Assembly: GCA_021780275.1 (NCBI GenBank)
Contig: JAJXZC010000699.1
Coordinates: forward strand, 1 to 5,194
Source: Pseudomonadota bacterium
GTDB taxonomy: Bacteria; Pseudomonadota; Alphaproteobacteria; Parvibaculales; Parvibaculaceae
Direction of reading: 5' to 3'
DNA: 5,194 bases
The notes under the pieces were generated by a model. That model ran no database searches. It saw only the letters and a list, made by a program, of their open reading frames with translations, and was not told the origin of the DNA. How positions within the stretch are numbered: the stretch's first letter is position 1; every line of letters starts with the position of its first letter. The translations under genes were made by a program, and so were the position numbers. Shown here one piece after another: positions 1 to 5,051 of the stretch.

Positions 1-146
1 AAGCCTACGACACGGTCGCCGAGGCGCGCGCCTCGCTCGGCCAATATCTCGACTTCTACAATCGCCAACGCCCGCACTCGAGCCTTGACCGACGCACTCC
101 GGACGAGGCTTACTTCAGCCCGACGCCACTCCCGGCGGCGGCATGA
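1..146 (+). CDS. IS3-family transposase (OrfB), C-terminal fragment
   Basis: The reading frame enters at the window edge (first full codon at 3) and stops at TGA 144-146, leaving 47 visible residues. The tail reads A-Y-D-T-V-A-E-A-R, then YLDFYNRQRPHSSLDRRTPDEAY. That is the typical end of the rve/DDE integrase core of IS3-family OrfB proteins, including the conserved Y-N-x-x-R-P-H-S-S-L motif. In the family this segment lies just after the catalytic Glu, so the catalytic residues themselves are outside the window. The protein cuts and joins IS ends together with OrfA. The length after the motif and the P-L-P-A-A-A end look natural, so this end of the gene is probably intact. A group II intron 3' end follows within 50 bp. 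Confidence in the family is high; the IS subgroup cannot be fixed from 47 residues. Confidence 0.9.
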   Translation, partial: AYDTVAEARASLGQYLDFYNRQRPHSSLDRRTPDEAYFSPTPLPAAA

Positions 147-192: not shown

Positions 193-264
193 GTCGAGTA
201 GGCGCGAAGGATTGCTCCCTCGCGCCTCTCACAGAACCGGACATGCGGGCCACGCATCCGGCTC
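193..264 (-). ncRNA. group II intron 3' end: domains V and VI
   Basis: On the minus strand, 264-234 begins GAGCCGGATGCG and ends CGCATGTCCGGTTC. It folds into a 31-nt hairpin: GAGCCGGA pairs with TCCGGTTC (one G-U), and TGCG pairs with CGCA with a 2-nt TG bulge on the 3' side. This is the canonical shape of bacterial group II domain V, including the AGC of the catalytic triad. Nine to ten nt on, 226-201 forms a second hairpin (GGCGCGA against TCGCGCC), followed by CTACTCGAC near 201-193. This fits domain VI and the 3' splice site. It lies immediately downstream of the RT stop codon (279), the expected position. Domains I-IV and the intron 5' end are not in the window. The exact 3' splice position is inferred from the CTAC-type ending. 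Confidence 0.85.
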
Positions 265-278
265 TTTGGATTGATATG

Positions 279-1166
279 TCAGAACTCCAGCACCAGCTGG
301 GTCGAGACCTGCGGTGGGTGTAGTCCGTTCCACAACGATTTGAGTGAAGCCATTCGTCCTTCGAACCACGAAGGGGAATAGGCTTTCGTCATCGCGGGGC
401 GGTTGGATTTCACCCATGCTCCCTTACCGCAGTACGCGCAGCCGGCGGCAGCCTTTGCGCTGACGCCCTTGGCCTTCAGGTGTCGGAAGAGGAAGCGCGG
501 ACGCTTCTTCTGTCGGACAATGATCGCCCTGACGCGGCGGCGGACATGGGCGTCGAGAACGCCCAGTCGCTGGACCGCCTCCGGCGCGCAAAGCCGGAAG
601 CGCGACATCCAACCCCTCAGGTGTCGGCTGATGTTTTCCATGCAGGAAGTGATGGATCGTCCCCAATTGGGAGGCGTCATTTCCCGCATTGTCGTCCTCA
701 GCCGCCGCTCCGCTTTGCCCGAAGGAAAGACGGCGACATGGTCGCCTTCCTTTCCTCGCGCGCAGCGAAAGCTGAAGCCCAGGAAATGAACCTCGTGAGG
801 CGGGCGCACGCCACTCTTCTCTTCGTTGACCTGGAGCCGCATGCGCGTCTCCAGAAAACCCCGAATCGATGTCATGACGCGCTTTCCGGCACGCTCGCTG
901 CGCACGAAGATATTGCAATCATCGGCGTAGCGAACGAATCGGAGACCTCGTCTCGCCAGTTCGCCGTCCAACTCGGTGAGTACGATATTGGATAGCAGTG
1001 GCGAAAGCGGGCCGCCTTGAGGCGTTCCTTCCTGGACTGCGATCTTCGTTCCGTCCGGCATTATCACCGCCGCTTTCAGCATCAGACGAACCAAGGAGAC
1101 GATCCGTGGGTCCTTCACGCGTTCGGCGATCCGGGCCTCCAGCCGTTGATGATGAACTCGGTCGAA
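279..1166 (-). pseudogene. ltrA: group II intron reverse transcriptase/maturase, C-terminal part (split by element 1)
   Basis: This is the larger piece of an intron-encoded RT that copies and helps splice its own intron RNA. The open frame formally starts at TTG 1205, but homology starts at F-D-R-V-H-H (codon at 1164-1166). The first 13 codons of the open frame belong to the inserted element. Counting from 1205, visible motifs are the EGTPQGGPLSPLLSNI block (residues 59-74), the catalytic YADD (93-96), an L-x-V-N-x-x-K-S block (124-131), F-L-G-F (141-144), and a maturase/GIIM-like domain with R-G-W-M-S-R-F-R-L (197-205) ending near S-L-W-N-G-L-H-P (290-297). No HNH endonuclease domain is present. 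The stop at 279 lies just before intron domain V, as in intact introns. The domain-A aspartate is missing from this piece; it lies in the 3892-4085 fragment. Inactive as it stands. Confidence 0.93.
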
Positions 1167-1167
1167 G
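1165..1167. other. left attachment junction (element 1), core AA/AAG
   Basis: On the left side is RT sequence (TTC-GAC-CGA on the minus strand); on the right is element sequence GGAAGCAGCCACAAACTGCC. The shared bases are AAG, and the likely 2-bp serine-recombinase crossover is AA (TT on the minus strand). The crossover splits the second Phe codon of the RT K-F-F-D motif. Confidence 0.7.
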
Positions 1168-1210
1168 GAAGCAGCCACAAACTGCCCATCACCGCGATAT
1201 TCCAATTGAT

Positions 1211-1660
1211 GTGACGATCACGCGCAAGGGTCACGCGCTTGAAGGGCGGACATTACCGCTGATCAACACCATCACGCGGCGCGGCGTCCACTACCTTCTC
1301 GCGGTTCTGCCGGACGGCAGCCGATCGCTGATTCCGTCGGGTTGGACAAATTACAGGCTGCAGCCGGTCGAACCGAGCGATGCCGATGAGACTGTCGACG
1401 ATCTCGGTAGGATCGCCGATTTGCTCCGGTTGCGCAATCTCGTCGACGCTCTTTGCTCCCGACAGCCCGAGTCGGCGCCGAGCAAGGAGAGCGACGATGC
1501 AGTTGAACCTCGGTCTCTTCGACGAGCGAGATCCGCCGCCAACACCGCCCGCATTGTGGGAACAGATCGACGAAGTCGCGCGGCTTACGGCAATCGAAAT
1601 TCTGGCGCGGCTCATCTCGCGCATGCTCCAGGGCGGGCCGATGAAGGAGCCGAACGATGA
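1211..1660 (+). CDS. DUF5372-like protein of element 1 (function unknown)
   Basis: The in-frame GTG at 1211 gives V-T-I-T-R-K-G-H-A-L-E-G, which matches the V-T-R-x-x-H-P-L-x-G start of DUF5372-type proteins encoded beside serine recombinases. A P-D-G-S-x-x-L-I-P-x-x-W-T-N block follows around residues 35-47. The homologue in element 2 (4127-4390) has the same plan, with V-T-R-P-F-H-P-L-Y-G and D-W-T-D. The GTG is chosen because the frame upstream of 1167 is antisense RT sequence outside the element; no convincing Shine-Dalgarno is visible. The domain looks real to about residue 93. The remaining 50 or so residues, to TGA 1658-1660, overlap the 55-aa ORF in another frame and are rich in Arg/Ala with rare AGA/CGA/GGA codons. 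The true end may therefore be earlier (a +1 frame stop lies at 1504-1506), implying a frameshift or sequence error. No biochemical role is known. Confidence 0.6.
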   Translation: MTITRKGHALEGRTLPLINTITRRGVHYLLAVLPDGSRSLIPSGWTNYRLQPVEPSDADETVDDLGRIADLLRLRNLVDALCSRQPESAPSKESDDAVEPRSLRRARSAANTARIVGTDRRSRAAYGNRNSGAAHLAHAPGRADEGAER

Positions 1661-1664
1661 ATGA
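1497..1664 (+). CDS. small 55-aa protein upstream of the recombinase
   Basis: ATG 1497 is preceded by AAGGAGA at 1484-1490, a strong Shine-Dalgarno at correct spacing. The product begins M-Q-L-N-L-G-L-F-D-E-R-D, then a proline-rich P-P-P-T-P-P, then a predicted amphipathic helix (W-E-Q-I-D-E-V-A-R-L-T-A-I-E-I-L-A-R-L-I). It ends M-K-E-P-N-D-E, and its stop overlaps the recombinase start as ATGAATGA. Acidic, short, no signal peptide, no transmembrane segment, no cysteine. Translational coupling to the recombinase suggests a shared job, possibly a partner or accessory factor of the integrase, but this is inferred from position only. I do not recognise a named family, though similar small ORFs beside recombinases are common in Hyphomicrobiales. 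Confidence 0.7.
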   Translation: MQLNLGLFDERDPPPTPPALWEQIDEVARLTAIEILARLISRMLQGGPMKEPNDE

Positions 1665-3864
1665 GCGCCTCAAGATTACCCCGGCTCATCTCGCGCGTCA
1701 GGCTATCGTCTATTTGCGCCAGTCCAGCGCCGCCCAGGTCGAGCACAACCGCGAATCGACGGAGCGGCAATACGCGCTGGCAGGCAAGGCGCGTGACCTC
1801 GGTTGGCCCGATGAACGCGTCGTGGTGATCGACGAGGATCTCGGGCTTTCCGGTTCGGGCTCTGTGGCGCGCTCGGGCTTTGCCCGCCTCACTGCGGAAG
1901 TGGCGCTTGGCCACGTCGGTCTCGTGCTGGGTCTGGAAGTGTCGCGGCTCGCGCGCAACAATGCAGAATGGTATCGTCTGATCGATCTGGCGGGTTTTAC
2001 CGACACGTTGATCGGCGACGCCGACGGCATCTATCATGCGGGCGTGTTCAATGACCGTCTCTTGTTGGGGCTCAAAGGCACAATGAGCGAAGCCGAGTTG
2101 CATGTACTGCGGGCTCGCCTCAACGGTGGAATCCGCAACAAGGCCGCGCGCGGCGAACTGCGACGCGGTCTGCCAGTCGGCTTCGTTTGGGGCGAGGCGG
2201 ACGGGGAGGTCCGCTTTCATCCCGACGAAGCTGTCGTCGCCGCCATTCGCAGCGTCTTTGCGCGCTTTGCCGAGACGGGGTCGGCGCGCCGCGTTTGGCT
2301 GTGGTTTCGATCCGAGGGACTCAAGTTTCCCCTGCAAATGCAGGCTCACAGCGAGATCCGCTGGCTAGAGGCGAGCTACACCGCCATTCACCACGTCTTG
2401 ACCAATCCTGTCTATGCTGGCGCGTACGTCTACGGCAGAACGCGCCAGGAGACGATTCTCGACGCCTCCGGCGCGCGCAGGAAACGCATTCGCCAGTTGC
2501 CGCGAGCCCAGTGGCAGGTGCTGATCCCCGAGCATCATTCCGGCTTCATCGACTGGCCGACTTATGAAGGCAATCAGCAACGTCTGGCGCAGAATACTCG
2601 GCCGCAGCCTCACGCGAGCGGTGGCGCCGTGAGAGAAGGCAGCGCGCTTCTGCAAGGCTTGGCGAGTTGCGGCCATTGCGGCCGCCGCCTGCACACCCAT
2701 TATCAGGGGCGCAGTTCTTCGCCAGGCTATCATTGCGCCGGAAAAGTGCTGGTCGAGAACCGTGGCGTCTACTGCCTCAATATCGGCGCCGTTCAGGTCG
2801 ACAACGCCATCGCCCAGGCGTTCCTTGCTGCCTTGGAGCCAGCAAAGCTGACCGCGGCGCTCGCTGCCGCCGAACGGCTCGATGCCGACCGCGAGGCAAC
2901 CCTCAAGCAGTGGCGATTGGCCTTGGACCGCGCGAGCTACGAAGCCTTACGCGCAGAGCGCCGTTATCGAGCCGTCGACCCTGACAACCGTCTCGTAGCG
3001 CGCGGGCTCGAACGCGAGTGGGAAGAATGCCTGAAGACGCTGGAAGCCGCCAAAGCCGCTCTCGCCCGTCGTGAGGCTGAACGCCCTACTGTGATAAACC
3101 AACATGAGCGCGACCGTCTCCTCGCGCTCGGGCCCGATCTCGTATCTGTCTGGTGCGCAAGCACGACGACGCCGCGGGACAGAAAGGAGTTGCTGCGAAC
3201 ACTCGTCGACGAGGTCATCATCAAAGTCGAGCGCGACGCATTTGCCGCCCGCCTCGCGGTACGCTGGAAGGGCGGCGCGCTGACCGAGATCGACCTGCAG
3301 CTGCCACGATCGCGTCCGGCCACAATCCGCACCGACGAGGACACGATCGCGCTGCTGCGCCGACTGGCGACGCATTATCCTGATGCTGTGATTGCCGGCG
3401 TCCTCAACAAACAAGGACGCAGGACCGCGTACGGTCACCGCTTCGACCGCAATCGCGTCGGCAATTTGCGTCGGCACTGGCATATCCCGAGCTGCGACGA
3501 AAAACCTCAAGCCGACGGCGATATCGTCACCATCCGACAAGCCGCTGCCGCCCTCGGCGTCGCTCCGTCGACGATCCATCGTCTGCTCAACGATGGCGTC
3601 ATCGCCGGCGAGCAACTTACGCCTGGCGCCCCCTGGCGCATTCGTCTGACTGATGACCTCAAGGCTCGCTTCAACGGCGAAGCGGGCGACGGCTTTCTGC
3701 CCATGCGCGAGGCCATGCGCGCGCTCGGCGTCTCCCGTCAAACCGTGTTGCAGCGTGTCAAGCGTGGGGAACTCGAAGCCGTGCATGTCATGCACGGGAA
3801 GCAAAACGGCCTCCGCGTCAAAGTCTTAGCCACGCAACCCAACCTCTTCGATCAGCCCGCATGA
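1657..3864 (+). CDS. large serine recombinase with zinc ribbon and C-terminal tandem HTH region
   Basis: A 735-aa site-specific recombinase that would cut both DNA strands at a 2-bp core via a phosphoserine link. The N-terminal resolvase domain (about 14-165) shows Y19-L-R21-Q-S23, with S23 the nucleophile, then R72 and the S-R97-L-A-R100 motif corresponding to the conserved active-site arginines. The recombinase domain follows at about 185-310 (T-N-P-V-Y-A-G at 249-255). A zinc ribbon holds C338-x2-C341, C360 and C373. A charged coiled-coil-like stretch spans about 395-480. Unusually, the C-terminus carries two MerR/excisionase-like helix-turn-helix segments: T-I-R-Q-A-A-A-A-L-G-V-A-P-S-T-I-H-R (625-642) and M-R-E-A-M-R-A-L-G-V-S-R-Q-T-V (683-697). 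ATG 1657 has AAGGAG at 1644-1649 and overlaps the preceding ORF stop. All active-site residues are present, so the enzyme looks functional. It probably integrated the element that encodes it. Confidence 0.95.
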   Translation: MNERLKITPAHLARQAIVYLRQSSAAQVEHNRESTERQYALAGKARDLGWPDERVVVIDEDLGLSGSGSVARSGFARLTAEVALGHVGLVLGLEVSRLARNNAEWYRLIDLAGFTDTLIGDADGIYHAGVFNDRLLLGLKGTMSEAELHVLRARLNGGIRNKAARGELRRGLPVGFVWGEADGEVRFHPDEAVVAAIRSVFARFAETGSARRVWLWFRSEGLKFPLQMQAHSEIRWLEASYTAIHHVLTNPVYAGAYVYGRTRQETILDASGARRKRIRQLPRAQWQVLIPEHHSGFIDWPTYEGNQQRLAQNTRPQPHASGGAVREGSALLQGLASCGHCGRRLHTHYQGRSSSPGYHCAGKVLVENRGVYCLNIGAVQVDNAIAQAFLAALEPAKLTAALAAAERLDADREATLKQWRLALDRASYEALRAERRYRAVDPDNRLVARGLEREWEECLKTLEAAKAALARREAERPTVINQHERDRLLALGPDLVSVWCASTTTPRDRKELLRTLVDEVIIKVERDAFAARLAVRWKGGALTEIDLQLPRSRPATIRTDEDTIALLRRLATHYPDAVIAGVLNKQGRRTAYGHRFDRNRVGNLRRHWHIPSCDEKPQADGDIVTIRQAAAALGVAPSTIHRLLNDGVIAGEQLTPGAPWRIRLTDDLKARFNGEAGDGFLPMREAMRALGVSRQTVLQRVKRGELEAVHVMHGKQNGLRVKVLATQPNLFDQPA

Positions 3865-3891
3865 ACCAGGGGGTATTATGATGCAGGGTCC
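3865..3891. other. right end of element 1 (half attachment site)
   Basis: The 27 bases between the recombinase stop codon and the crossover contain a run of G, then GGTATTATGATGCAGGGTCC. No terminator hairpin is seen. Read outward from the core, this end (GGACCCTGCATCATAAT) partly matches the left end (GGAAGCAGCCACAAACT) at 10 of 17 positions, the imperfect symmetry expected of a serine integrase binding site. Confidence 0.45.
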
Positions 3892-3894
3892 AAG
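3892..3894. other. right attachment junction (element 1), core AA/AAG
   Basis: Left of it is element DNA (GCAGGGTCC); right of it is RT coding sequence (minus strand GACTTGGCCAAATTC, D-L-A-K-F). The bases AAG recur at the other junction (1165-1167). The downstream frame read from RT into the element gives only L-D-P-A-S before a stop at 3876-3878, so the RT is terminated prematurely. Confidence 0.7.
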
Positions 3895-4085
3895 AATTTG
3901 GCCAAGTCAAGATCAACCACTGTGTGATAGCCGTCCTTCAGATATTCCGTTGCTTCGGCGATGGCGGTATGAGCGCCGCGTTTGGGGCGGAACCCGTGAC
4001 TGCTGGGATGAAAGGTTGGCTCGAAGACCGGCTCCATCACCTGGAGCAGAGCTTGCTGAACCACCCTGTCAACGACGTTGGGCAC
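3892..4085 (-). pseudogene. ltrA: group II intron reverse transcriptase, internal N-terminal-side fragment
   Basis: The minus-strand frame reads V-P-N-V-V-D-R-V-V-Q-Q-A-L-L, then E-P-V-F-E-P-T-F-H-P-S-S-H-G-F-R-P, then T-V-V-D-L-D-L-A-K-F. This is the RT-0 to domain-A region of intron-encoded RTs, and the D-L-D box supplies the first metal-binding aspartate of the polymerase site. It continues exactly into the F-D-R-V-H-H start of the 279-1166 fragment once element 1 is removed, so the two are pieces of one gene. The formal open frame extends from GTG 4103 to the stop at 3876, but residues before V-P-N-V do not look like RT and belong to element 2. The true RT start and about the first 60-100 residues are missing from the window. 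The fragment is not expected to be functional. Confidence 0.92.
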
Positions 4086-4126
4086 AGTCCCGTCAAACTG
4101 CACTCTTCGCCAATCCGTCTTTAGGT

Positions 4127-4390
4127 TTGGCGACCGTCACGCGCCCGTTCCATCCCCTTTACGGGCAGACATTGGAGGTTCTCAAGGTCCGTCGGCTCGC
4201 CGGGCGTGAGTCCCTGAGCCTCCGCCACCCAGAGCGGGGTTCCCTGGCGATCTGTCGCGATTGGACGGACTGGGCGCCGCCAGGCGCTTCGCCGCCGCCC
4301 GGTTCCCCGCCGTTGCGGGTAGACGCTTTTGGCCTGATCCGCCTTGCGGAACTGCTGGCTTGCTTACATCAACGCAATGAAAGGGGTTGA
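4127..4390 (+). CDS. DUF5372-like protein of element 2 (function unknown)
   Basis: Read from TTG 4127 this is an 87-aa protein beginning M-A-T-V-T-R-P-F-H-P-L-Y-G-Q-T-L-E-V-L, the hallmark start of DUF5372-type proteins. R-D-W-T-D-W follows at residues 44-49, then a Pro/Gly-rich linker and a C-terminal helix with F-G-L-I-R-L-A-E-L-L-A-C-L. The frame upstream of about 4085 is antisense RT, so the start must be inside the element. TTG 4127 is the nearest in-frame candidate, but only a poorly spaced AGG precedes it, so the start is uncertain. The protein is basic at its N-terminus and lacks catalytic motifs, signal peptide or membrane spans. It shares gene order with the DUF5372-like ORF of element 1 but is clearly divergent. 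Function unknown. Confidence 0.75.
   Translation: MATVTRPFHPLYGQTLEVLKVRRLAGRESLSLRHPERGSLAICRDWTDWAPPGASPPPGSPPLRVDAFGLIRLAELLACLHQRNERG
4381..4386 (+). promoter_or_regulatory. Shine-Dalgarno for ATG 4394
   Basis: AAGGGG lies 7 nt before ATG 4394, a better start signal than that of the in-frame DUF6788 start at 4440. The ATG opens a frame (M-T-R-P-L-I-L-S-D-N-F-A-K-Q) that differs from the DUF6788 frame. Confidence 0.4.
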
Positions 4391-4439
4391 CCGATGACTC
4401 GACCTCTGATTCTCTCGGACAACTTTGCGAAGCAGTCTG

Positions 4440-4781
4440 ATGGACCTCAAGGATCTTTCCCCCTCGGACCTACGCGAACGACGCCGCCAGATCGCCGGCG
4501 CCATGCCGCCGGTCGAGCACGTGATGCGCGGAACGCTGCTGGCCGCCTACAAGCGCTGTGGCCGGCCAAATTGCCATTGTGCCAGTGGGCCTGGACATGG
4601 TCCGAAGCACTATCTCTCGGTCAGTCAAAAGGGCGCCCACCCACGCCGATATTATGTGCGCAATACGGACGTCGGCCGCGCCGCTCAATTCATCAGCAAT
4701 CTCCAAATGCTTCGCGCCGCGCTCGACCAGATATGCGCCATCAATACCGAGTTGTTGCGGCGTCACGAAGACCTCGGATAG
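4440..4781 (+). CDS. DUF6788-like protein with a cysteine motif
   Basis: A 113-aa protein from ATG 4440 to TAG 4779-4781. The diagnostic block is M-R-G-T-L-L-A-A-Y-K-R-C40-G-R-P-N-C45-H-C47-A, followed by G-P-G-H-G-P-K-H-Y-L-S, which matches the DUF6788 pattern (R-C-G-K-P-N-C-x-C, G-H-G-P) often encoded near recombinases and transposases. The three clustered cysteines may bind metal, but this is not shown. The C-terminal half is helical (A-A-Q-F-I-S-N-L-Q-M-L-R-A-A-L). ATG 4440 has no good ribosome site. The best start signal nearby is ATG 4394, in another frame, and an in-frame TTG lies at 4425. The gene could therefore be translationally coupled to a short leader or carry a frameshift near its start. 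In the element 1 operon no DUF6788 gene is present. Function unknown. Confidence 0.8.
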   Translation: MDLKDLSPSDLRERRRQIAGAMPPVEHVMRGTLLAAYKRCGRPNCHCASGPGHGPKHYLSVSQKGAHPRRYYVRNTDVGRAAQFISNLQMLRAALDQICAINTELLRRHEDLG

Positions 4782-4802
4782 ACAGATTTGGGATAGATAG
4801 AC

Positions 4803-5051
4803 GTGGCACTTTCCCCAGGCCAGTTCGACTTGATCCAGATTGGCGCCATTCTCGCCAATATGGTCACGTCCTACCTCGACGCCGCTCCCCCGCCGATTTT
4901 GGAGGAGAGGACCGATGACTGTGACGCTTTCAAAGATCAACCCCCAGCACCTGACGCGGACGGCCTACATCTACATCCGTCAGTCGACGTTGACACAGGT
5001 GCGCTTCAATCAGGAGAGCACCGAGCGCCAATACAATCCGGTATCATGTAG
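4803..5051 (+). CDS. small ORF ahead of recombinase 2 (uncertain)
   Basis: GTG 4803, with GGGA at 4790-4793, opens an 82-codon frame. The first 39 residues (M-A-L-S-P-G-Q-F-D-L-I-Q-I-G-A-I-L-A-N-M-V, then P-P-P-I-L-E-E-R-T-D-D) look like a compact helical protein. They occupy the same operon slot as the 55-aa ORF of element 1: short, with a Pro-rich patch and acidic end, overlapping the recombinase start. The rest of the frame overlaps the recombinase in a different frame and looks like a shadow, so the native protein probably ended near 4920 before a change, or the overlap is natural. No named family is recognised. Confidence 0.4.
   Translation: MALSPGQFDLIQIGAILANMVTSYLDAAPPPILEERTDDCDAFKDQPPAPDADGLHLHPSVDVDTGALQSGEHRAPIQSGIM

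Follow-up and report, generated by a model that had tools for sequence, protein, structure and literature searches.

Contig JAJXZC010000699.1 (assembly GCA_021780275.1), a 5,194-nt stretch of DNA from a member of the Parvibaculaceae that we refer to as the window, encodes a group II intron reverse transcriptase (RT) on its minus strand. The RT gene is split into two parts by an insert that carries a large serine recombinase (LSR). Judging from the sequences compared here, we consider it very likely (a probability of about 90 per cent) that this 2.7 kb unit is a site-specific mobile element of insertion sequence (IS) size, which would be moved by its own LSR and would use the DNA of a conserved group II RT motif as its target attachment site (attB). 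The element looks like a parasite of genomic parasites.

In profile matches, the upper RT part on the minus strand covers positions 70–135 of TIGR04416 and the other part covers positions 133–352. The first part ends in ..DLDLAKF and the second restarts with FDRVHHQ, a break at K-F|F-D. The inserted unit is 2727 bp long with AA at either edge, and its ends were located with weight matrices built from related loci, which scored 33.3 on the left and 35.9 on the right. The size of the insert and the position of the join, as proposed in a first-pass annotation of this DNA, are thus borne out to the base. The same annotation held that excision would restore the reading frame. This stands across the junction, where the joined window RT matches the intact RT P0001 with 0 gaps (348/359 identical residues), but the RT is otherwise incomplete. 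Homology starts at ~4085, the counterpart of P0001 residues 1–132 is missing, and the DNA upstream of the remnant (4085–4390) is not RT-like against P0001. Since Rfam also gave no match to intron domains D1–D4 within the window, the 5′ part of this intron seems to have been replaced. The interrupted gene itself has the features of a group II RT, with RVT_1 (PF00078), a maturase domain (PF08388), and an adjacent intron domain V (RF00029). The recombinase, described at first as apparently intact, does have an uninterrupted open reading frame (ORF). PF00239, PF07508, and PF13408 all score above cut-off in the order typical of LSRs, with the N-terminal Resolvase domain followed by the Recombinase domain and zinc ribbon. 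As in other LSR elements, the same short core (AA) is found at both junctions and the target rejoins exactly, both in ungapped joins and in the one-piece empty sites described below. A search of the PDB returned two weak matches to the catalytic domain.

Relatives were collected by LSR similarity alone, so their insertion sites were not pre-selected. They came from 521 plasmid records (nine of the best matches were used) and from the best 80 of 328 stretches in contigs of one genome per species, for a set of ninety loci (numbered with the prefix L) with the window included. Loci were assessable if both ends could be placed by the weight matrices and each side had 45 nt or more of flank (64/90); the 26 left out lacked an end, had too little flank, or were broken copies. 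A site was counted as RT if a profile built from sixty RT proteins ran unbroken through the joined flanks. With the window RT halves as the sole queries and a limit of 1.5 kb from the LSR, the N half was found after the LSR in 64/90 loci and the C half before it in 46/90, again including the window. Iterated searches gave seventy-nine N halves and sixty-one C halves among the ninety loci, but these counts contain self-hits, and we therefore rely on the first pass (pass 0) and on the profile test.

The RT profile spans the joined site in 55 of the 64 assessable loci (54/63 without the window), and one more site, at L029, was recognized as RT by eye. In each of the 55 loci the join falls in a Phe codon with an Asp at –5, and the next residue is Asp (47 loci) or Gly (8 loci). 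LSR and RT run in opposite directions in 55/55. The join lies at an approximate profile position of 195–200 in 53/55 loci and at 202 and 212 in the other two. Examples of the joined motif are WVLDADIRSFFDSVSQ, TVVDVDLSRYFDTIQH, and RVLDFDLRAYFDNIRH; that of the window is TVVDLDLAKFFDRVHH. Joined ORFs have a median length of 332 aa, which is limited by the stretch that was joined, and a minimum of 86. The interrupted RTs are divergent: among the 51 of at least 150 aa, 1134/1275 pairs could be aligned, with a median identity of 37 per cent. The 56 RT-inserted loci carry origin labels from eight phyla, many of them taken from contigs of metagenome-assembled genomes in which binning errors are possible. 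Recurrence at one codon and in one orientation in 55/64 loci leads us to reject a chance adjacency of LSR and RT genes. The first-pass annotation had inferred that the RT motif is the attB and that group II introns may be the preferred landing site; the counts above strongly support this.

Element copies within single genomes provide the strongest single test of RT-site targeting. In Mesorhizobium AR07, two elements (L016 and L019) are 99.5 per cent identical while their RTs share 34.7 per cent identity. The corresponding values are 100 and 32.3 per cent for L021 and L022 in Cupriavidus UYPR2.512, and 100 and 30.1 per cent for L037 and L039 in Bradyrhizobium CCGUVB4N. Between L021 and L022, identity spans the 2727 bp and stops no more than 4 nt from the element ends. 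The introns also belong to different Rfam D1–D4 classes within two of these pairs (RF02005 in L016 and RF01999 in L019; RF02001 in L021 and RF02003 in L022).

Empty counterparts were found for two further insertions besides that of the window, whose joined RT matches P0001. The joined flanks of L037 match NZ_CP121651.1 in one piece over 600/600 nt with 97.7 per cent identity, and those of L001 match another plasmid, from Bradyrhizobium elkanii, again in one piece over 600/600 nt, with 87.5 per cent identity. We also searched ten interrupted introns, picked for their long flanks, for ribozyme domains using Rfam. In eight of these, D1–D4 and domain V match on the strand of the RT, the former on its 5′ side and the latter on its 3′ side; the pattern was not clear in L025 and L030. 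With these domains kept on either side, the ribozyme is mostly untouched by the insertion.

Across the 92-nt attB, seventeen positions have one base in at least 90 per cent of the 56 RT sites. Mean information at these sites is 0.68 bits at first codon positions, 0.96 at second, and 0.40 at third. This information is the conservation of the protein itself, and what the LSR requires is therefore inseparable from the positions that the RT fixes. Eight non-RT sites, considered below, help a little to separate the two. Several of them encode look-alikes: among these, L018 has VGFFETDHHQ, within an ATPase gene, L077 has EAFFRRIKHQ, within the gene of a DDE transposase, and L057 has NRRFEQVD, the genes having been named by eye. 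The core of L080 is AT rather than AA at both ends, which would fit a requirement that the cores be identical.

We propose that the LSR joins a site on the element (attP, ..TCC-AA-GGA..) to an attB made up of the DNA for [D/E]-x-D-[I/L]-x-x-x-F-[D/G] in group II RTs, presumably by the usual serine recombination chemistry and through a circular intermediate. Crossover would take place on the AA/TT dinucleotide, whose TT is invariant in the Phe codon. Most of the site resides in first and second codon positions, so that a single recombinase could enter RTs that are only 30–40 per cent identical. The LSR would land antisense to the RT and inactivate it. As the ribozyme domains usually remain on both sides, the burden on the host should be small, and a maturase supplied in trans may still allow the intron to splice.

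Several observations weigh against this account. Eight of the 64 assessable insertions are not in an RT (L018, L035, L054, L057, L068, L077, L078, and L080). The preference for RTs is thus not exclusive, and what the first-pass annotation named as grounds for refutation, related elements in unrelated targets without an RT motif, does occur in this minority, though some of the sites have RT-like DNA. These sites match 5–11 of the seventeen most conserved attB positions, and four of the eight exceed 9, which is the 95th percentile of a background of 912 AA-centred sequence windows (mean 5.6). In Cupriavidus, L022, L023, and L089 share flanking intron sequence as well as the element, with identity fading outward, and some copies may therefore stem from recombination between introns. 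The junction of an excised circle was absent from 145 loci and from viral contigs in an exact-match search. Finally, the sample was taken best-first and is weighted towards close relatives (80/328 stretches kept), and 26/90 loci were not assessable. The left-end pattern of the element did occur in two viral contigs without a match to reference genes, probably by chance.

The non-RT sites raise the question of whether the LSR inserts widely with low specificity and the copies that last are just those that hit a harmless gene, for instance an intron RT. Genes of mobile elements are in general dispensable to the host, which fits such survivorship. It would, however, predict insertions across RT genes and in both orientations, whereas 55/55 fall on one codon in one orientation, and near-identical copies strike that codon in RTs that are only 30–35 per cent identical; we regard this explanation as very unlikely. 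Nearly as improbable, if slightly less so, is that the element entered an ancestral intron once and has since ridden within introns, spreading by retrohoming or recombination among them. Here L022 and L023 are the relevant case: they share ~5 kb of intron plus element (~4340–9290) at different outer sites, with ~100 per cent identity near the element and 90–96 per cent at the intron ends, a gradient which suggests gene conversion between introns. Yet near-identical elements sit in different D1–D4 classes within one genome (L016/L019 and L021/L022), the identity of L021 and L022 stops at the element ends, and both sister LSRs and off-target copies occur outside introns. Given the different intron classes we reject intron-borne spread as the sole mode, although recombination between introns may add copies.

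The least probable of the alternatives, in our estimate, is a developmental or regulatory switch like the fdxN/XisF or skin elements, in which the insert excises to restore the RT. The junctions do restore the frame exactly, and the best named model for the window LSR is XisF, at a score far below cut-off (63.7 of 375 bits). Exact rejoining nevertheless follows from any serine-integrase reaction, and the excised form was not found by its exact pattern. The window RT also lacks its N-terminal 132 residues, and on account of this truncation we reject a switch for the window copy. The earlier suggestion that excision could turn RT activity back on is accordingly unsupported in this DNA, where the RT is 5′-truncated and no circle junction was found.

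Site-specific insertion by the LSR into the RT motif, our preferred reading, can be set beside the targets of its sister LSRs, which are ~37–44 per cent identical to the window LSR and are located in genes of other mobile elements, a wider pattern than the first-pass annotation described. With natural intact genes as references, both target halves flank the LSR element in the following cases. The IS21 gene istB is split at its P-loop (~residue 108–116) in L090, L094, and L095, and at a later site in L091, L096, and L109; the halves in L094 are 100 per cent identical to an intact istB of another plasmid. Because the first IstB references had been assembled from parts of L090 and L096, matches to these two loci were self-matches; two natural intact IstB genes confirm all six loci. 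IS66 TnpC is split at residue 442–447 in L093, L110, L131, L132, and L133, in L125 with a short N half, and slightly later (454–462) in L097. IS66 TnpB is split in L114 (48–51) and, weakly, in L121. In L126 and L127 the target is another LSR gene of the same superfamily, split at DEDGIYD (residue 120–121). Further cases, including IS21 istA and other DDE transposases (L113, L117, L107, L111, and L115), were identified from one half or by eye from a motif only, and for L107, L111, and L117 the reference was the locus itself. The insertions in these five loci lie just before what we take to be the last catalytic acid of the transposase. A simple rule of orientation does not extend to IS66 TnpC, where, unlike in RTs, insertions are found in both orientations (sense in L093, L131, and L132; antisense in L110, L125, and L133). 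Opposite orientations occur even between the close LSRs L131 and L133.

A tree of sixty-nine chosen LSRs places 38 members of the RT-targeting group (31 RT, 7 off-target) on one side of a branch with support of 100 in the Shimodaira–Hasegawa-like approximate likelihood ratio test (SH-aLRT), and the seven off-target sequences are scattered among the others of this group. The eleven site labels need nineteen changes on the tree, compared with a mean of 36.6 after shuffling, and none of 200 shuffles was as low. The labels for non-RT sites and for a two-member TnpC group are not clustered (500/500 shuffles as low). The tree was built by a quick search method, has flagged long branches, and includes 6/31 sister sequences without an assigned target. 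In this analysis L093 was wrongly given a different label from the remaining IS66 TnpC sites; the residue check puts it at the same residue.

Taken with these targets, we think it probable that a superfamily of LSR insertion sequences, each made up of a DUF5372-like ORF, a small ORF, and the LSR, is specialized in parasitizing other mobile elements, that the RT-targeting element forms one of its branches, and that each clade reads the DNA of a different conserved motif. These motifs would be F-[D/G] of group II RTs, the P-loop and the later site of IS21 IstB, sites in IS66 TnpC and TnpB, and DEDGIYD of sister LSRs, and probably also sites in IS21 IstA and in other DDE transposases near the last catalytic acid. 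If so, codon positions fixed by protein function would give each clade broad, multicopy, and host-neutral targets.

Several known systems share features with this element. LSRs and serine integrases (phage integrases, TndX/TnpX transposases; Durrant et al. 2022, PMC10083194) have the same order of Resolvase, Recombinase, and zinc-ribbon domains and a short core at both ends, enter conserved genes, and include distant relatives with a common target. The window element differs in that it is IS-sized with no cargo seen, targets the RT motif of a mobile element, and has extra C-terminal HTH_17/excise-type domains. The terms ‘reverse transcriptase’, ‘maturase’, ‘IS66’, and ‘IS21’ are absent from the main text of that study in the form available. 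DUF4368, the mark of the multi-targeting LSR clade of the same study, is not among the fifteen Pfam matches of the window LSR. The LSR is also below cut-off for the XisF/fdxN recombinase model (NF041201) and for that of IS607 transposases (NF033518, 15.8 of 110 bits). IS607, too, is small and mobile and depends on a serine recombinase for movement; its transposases are described as showing minimal target specificity (PMC4058570).

IStrons, in which a DNA transposon is fused to a group I intron (PMC4227781), similarly tie a DNA transposon to a self-splicing intron with a possibly silent insertion, whereas the element here is free-standing and enters many different group II introns. IS110/IS1111-type elements use DEDD transposases with a guide RNA (PMC11187229). 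The choice of other mobile elements as a site is one that our element shares with IS4321/IS5075 and other members of IS110/IS1111, but here an LSR enters conserved coding motifs and not terminal inverted repeats. IS4321/IS5075 and other IS110/IS1111 elements target other mobile elements by entering their terminal inverted repeats. LSR integration into conserved genes and elements that target elements are thus both known already, and what is new is their combination here. A literature search that covered few subscription papers and no bioRxiv preprints gave no report of a serine-recombinase IS dedicated to sites in RT or IS genes; with this coverage the negative is weak evidence of absence. No mention of DUF6788 or DUF5372 was found in the literature searched.

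Such an element would keep a stable address across very different hosts by aiming at function-fixed DNA in genes that the host can lose. It would turn ‘transposons of transposons’ into a testable system and offer a group of serine recombinases whose attB sites are naturally degenerate and whose off-targets are known. Group II introns and IS elements would also face a further check on their spread.

The features of the window are listed in Table 1. A counterpart of ORF A is in place in 75 of the 82 loci with over 500 nt upstream, and one of ORF B in 52/82 (tblastn, E<1). Pfam DUF5372 matches ORF A in two sister elements but not the ORF A of the window. From position and conservation, we would guess that ORF A or ORF B is a directionality factor.

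Table 1. Coordinates of the LSR element and the interrupted intron in the window.
Feature	Position	Strand	Basis and remarks
LSR element plus the AA core on each side	1165..3893	+	End weight matrices; repeat unit 2727 bp
Left terminus	1165..1194	+	AA core 1165-1166, then GGAAGCAGCCACAAACTGCCCATC..
Right terminus	3868..3893	+	..AGGGGGTATTATGATGCAGGGTCC, then AA core 3892-3893
ORF A	1211..1660	+	Counterparts in sister elements DUF5372-like; GTG at 1211 a possible start, by eye; conserved to ~1498
ORF B, 55 aa	1497..1664	+	ORF frame; overlaps LSR start
LSR, 735 aa	1657..3864	+	Resolvase, Recombinase, Zn ribbon, HTH_17 (two stretches)
C-terminal half of interrupted RT	279..1166	-	FDRV.. via YADD to maturase domain
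RT part N-terminal to insertion	3892..4085	-	VPNVVDRV..DLDLAKF; homology to intact RT ends at ~4085
Group II intron domain V, 3′ end of interrupted intron	193..266	-	RF00029, 46.6 bits (gathering 40)

Some copies depart from this layout. In seven loci of the Desulfo-group (L054, L057, L061, L063, L066, L070, and L075), the right end reaches ~120 nt further past the LSR stop and contains TTGCAACGTGT. L006 (plasmid pWW53) and L085 (Pseudomonas sp. Ant30-3) hold a related copy with a frameshifted LSR and a right flank that is RT-like by eye, and a second recombinase fragment lies upstream of this copy in both. The window has a remnant of a second LSR element at 4425–5050, consisting of a DUF6788 ORF (4425–4781), an 82-aa ORF, and the start of an LSR (4933–5034), whose first ~35 residues are 62 per cent identical to the main LSR before it is cut off near 5040. 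At the other end of the window (3–146), the end of a plus-strand ORF (..YNRQRPHSSLDRRTPDEAYF..), which we take to resemble the C-terminus of an IS3-family transposase, adjoins the 3′ end of the intron.

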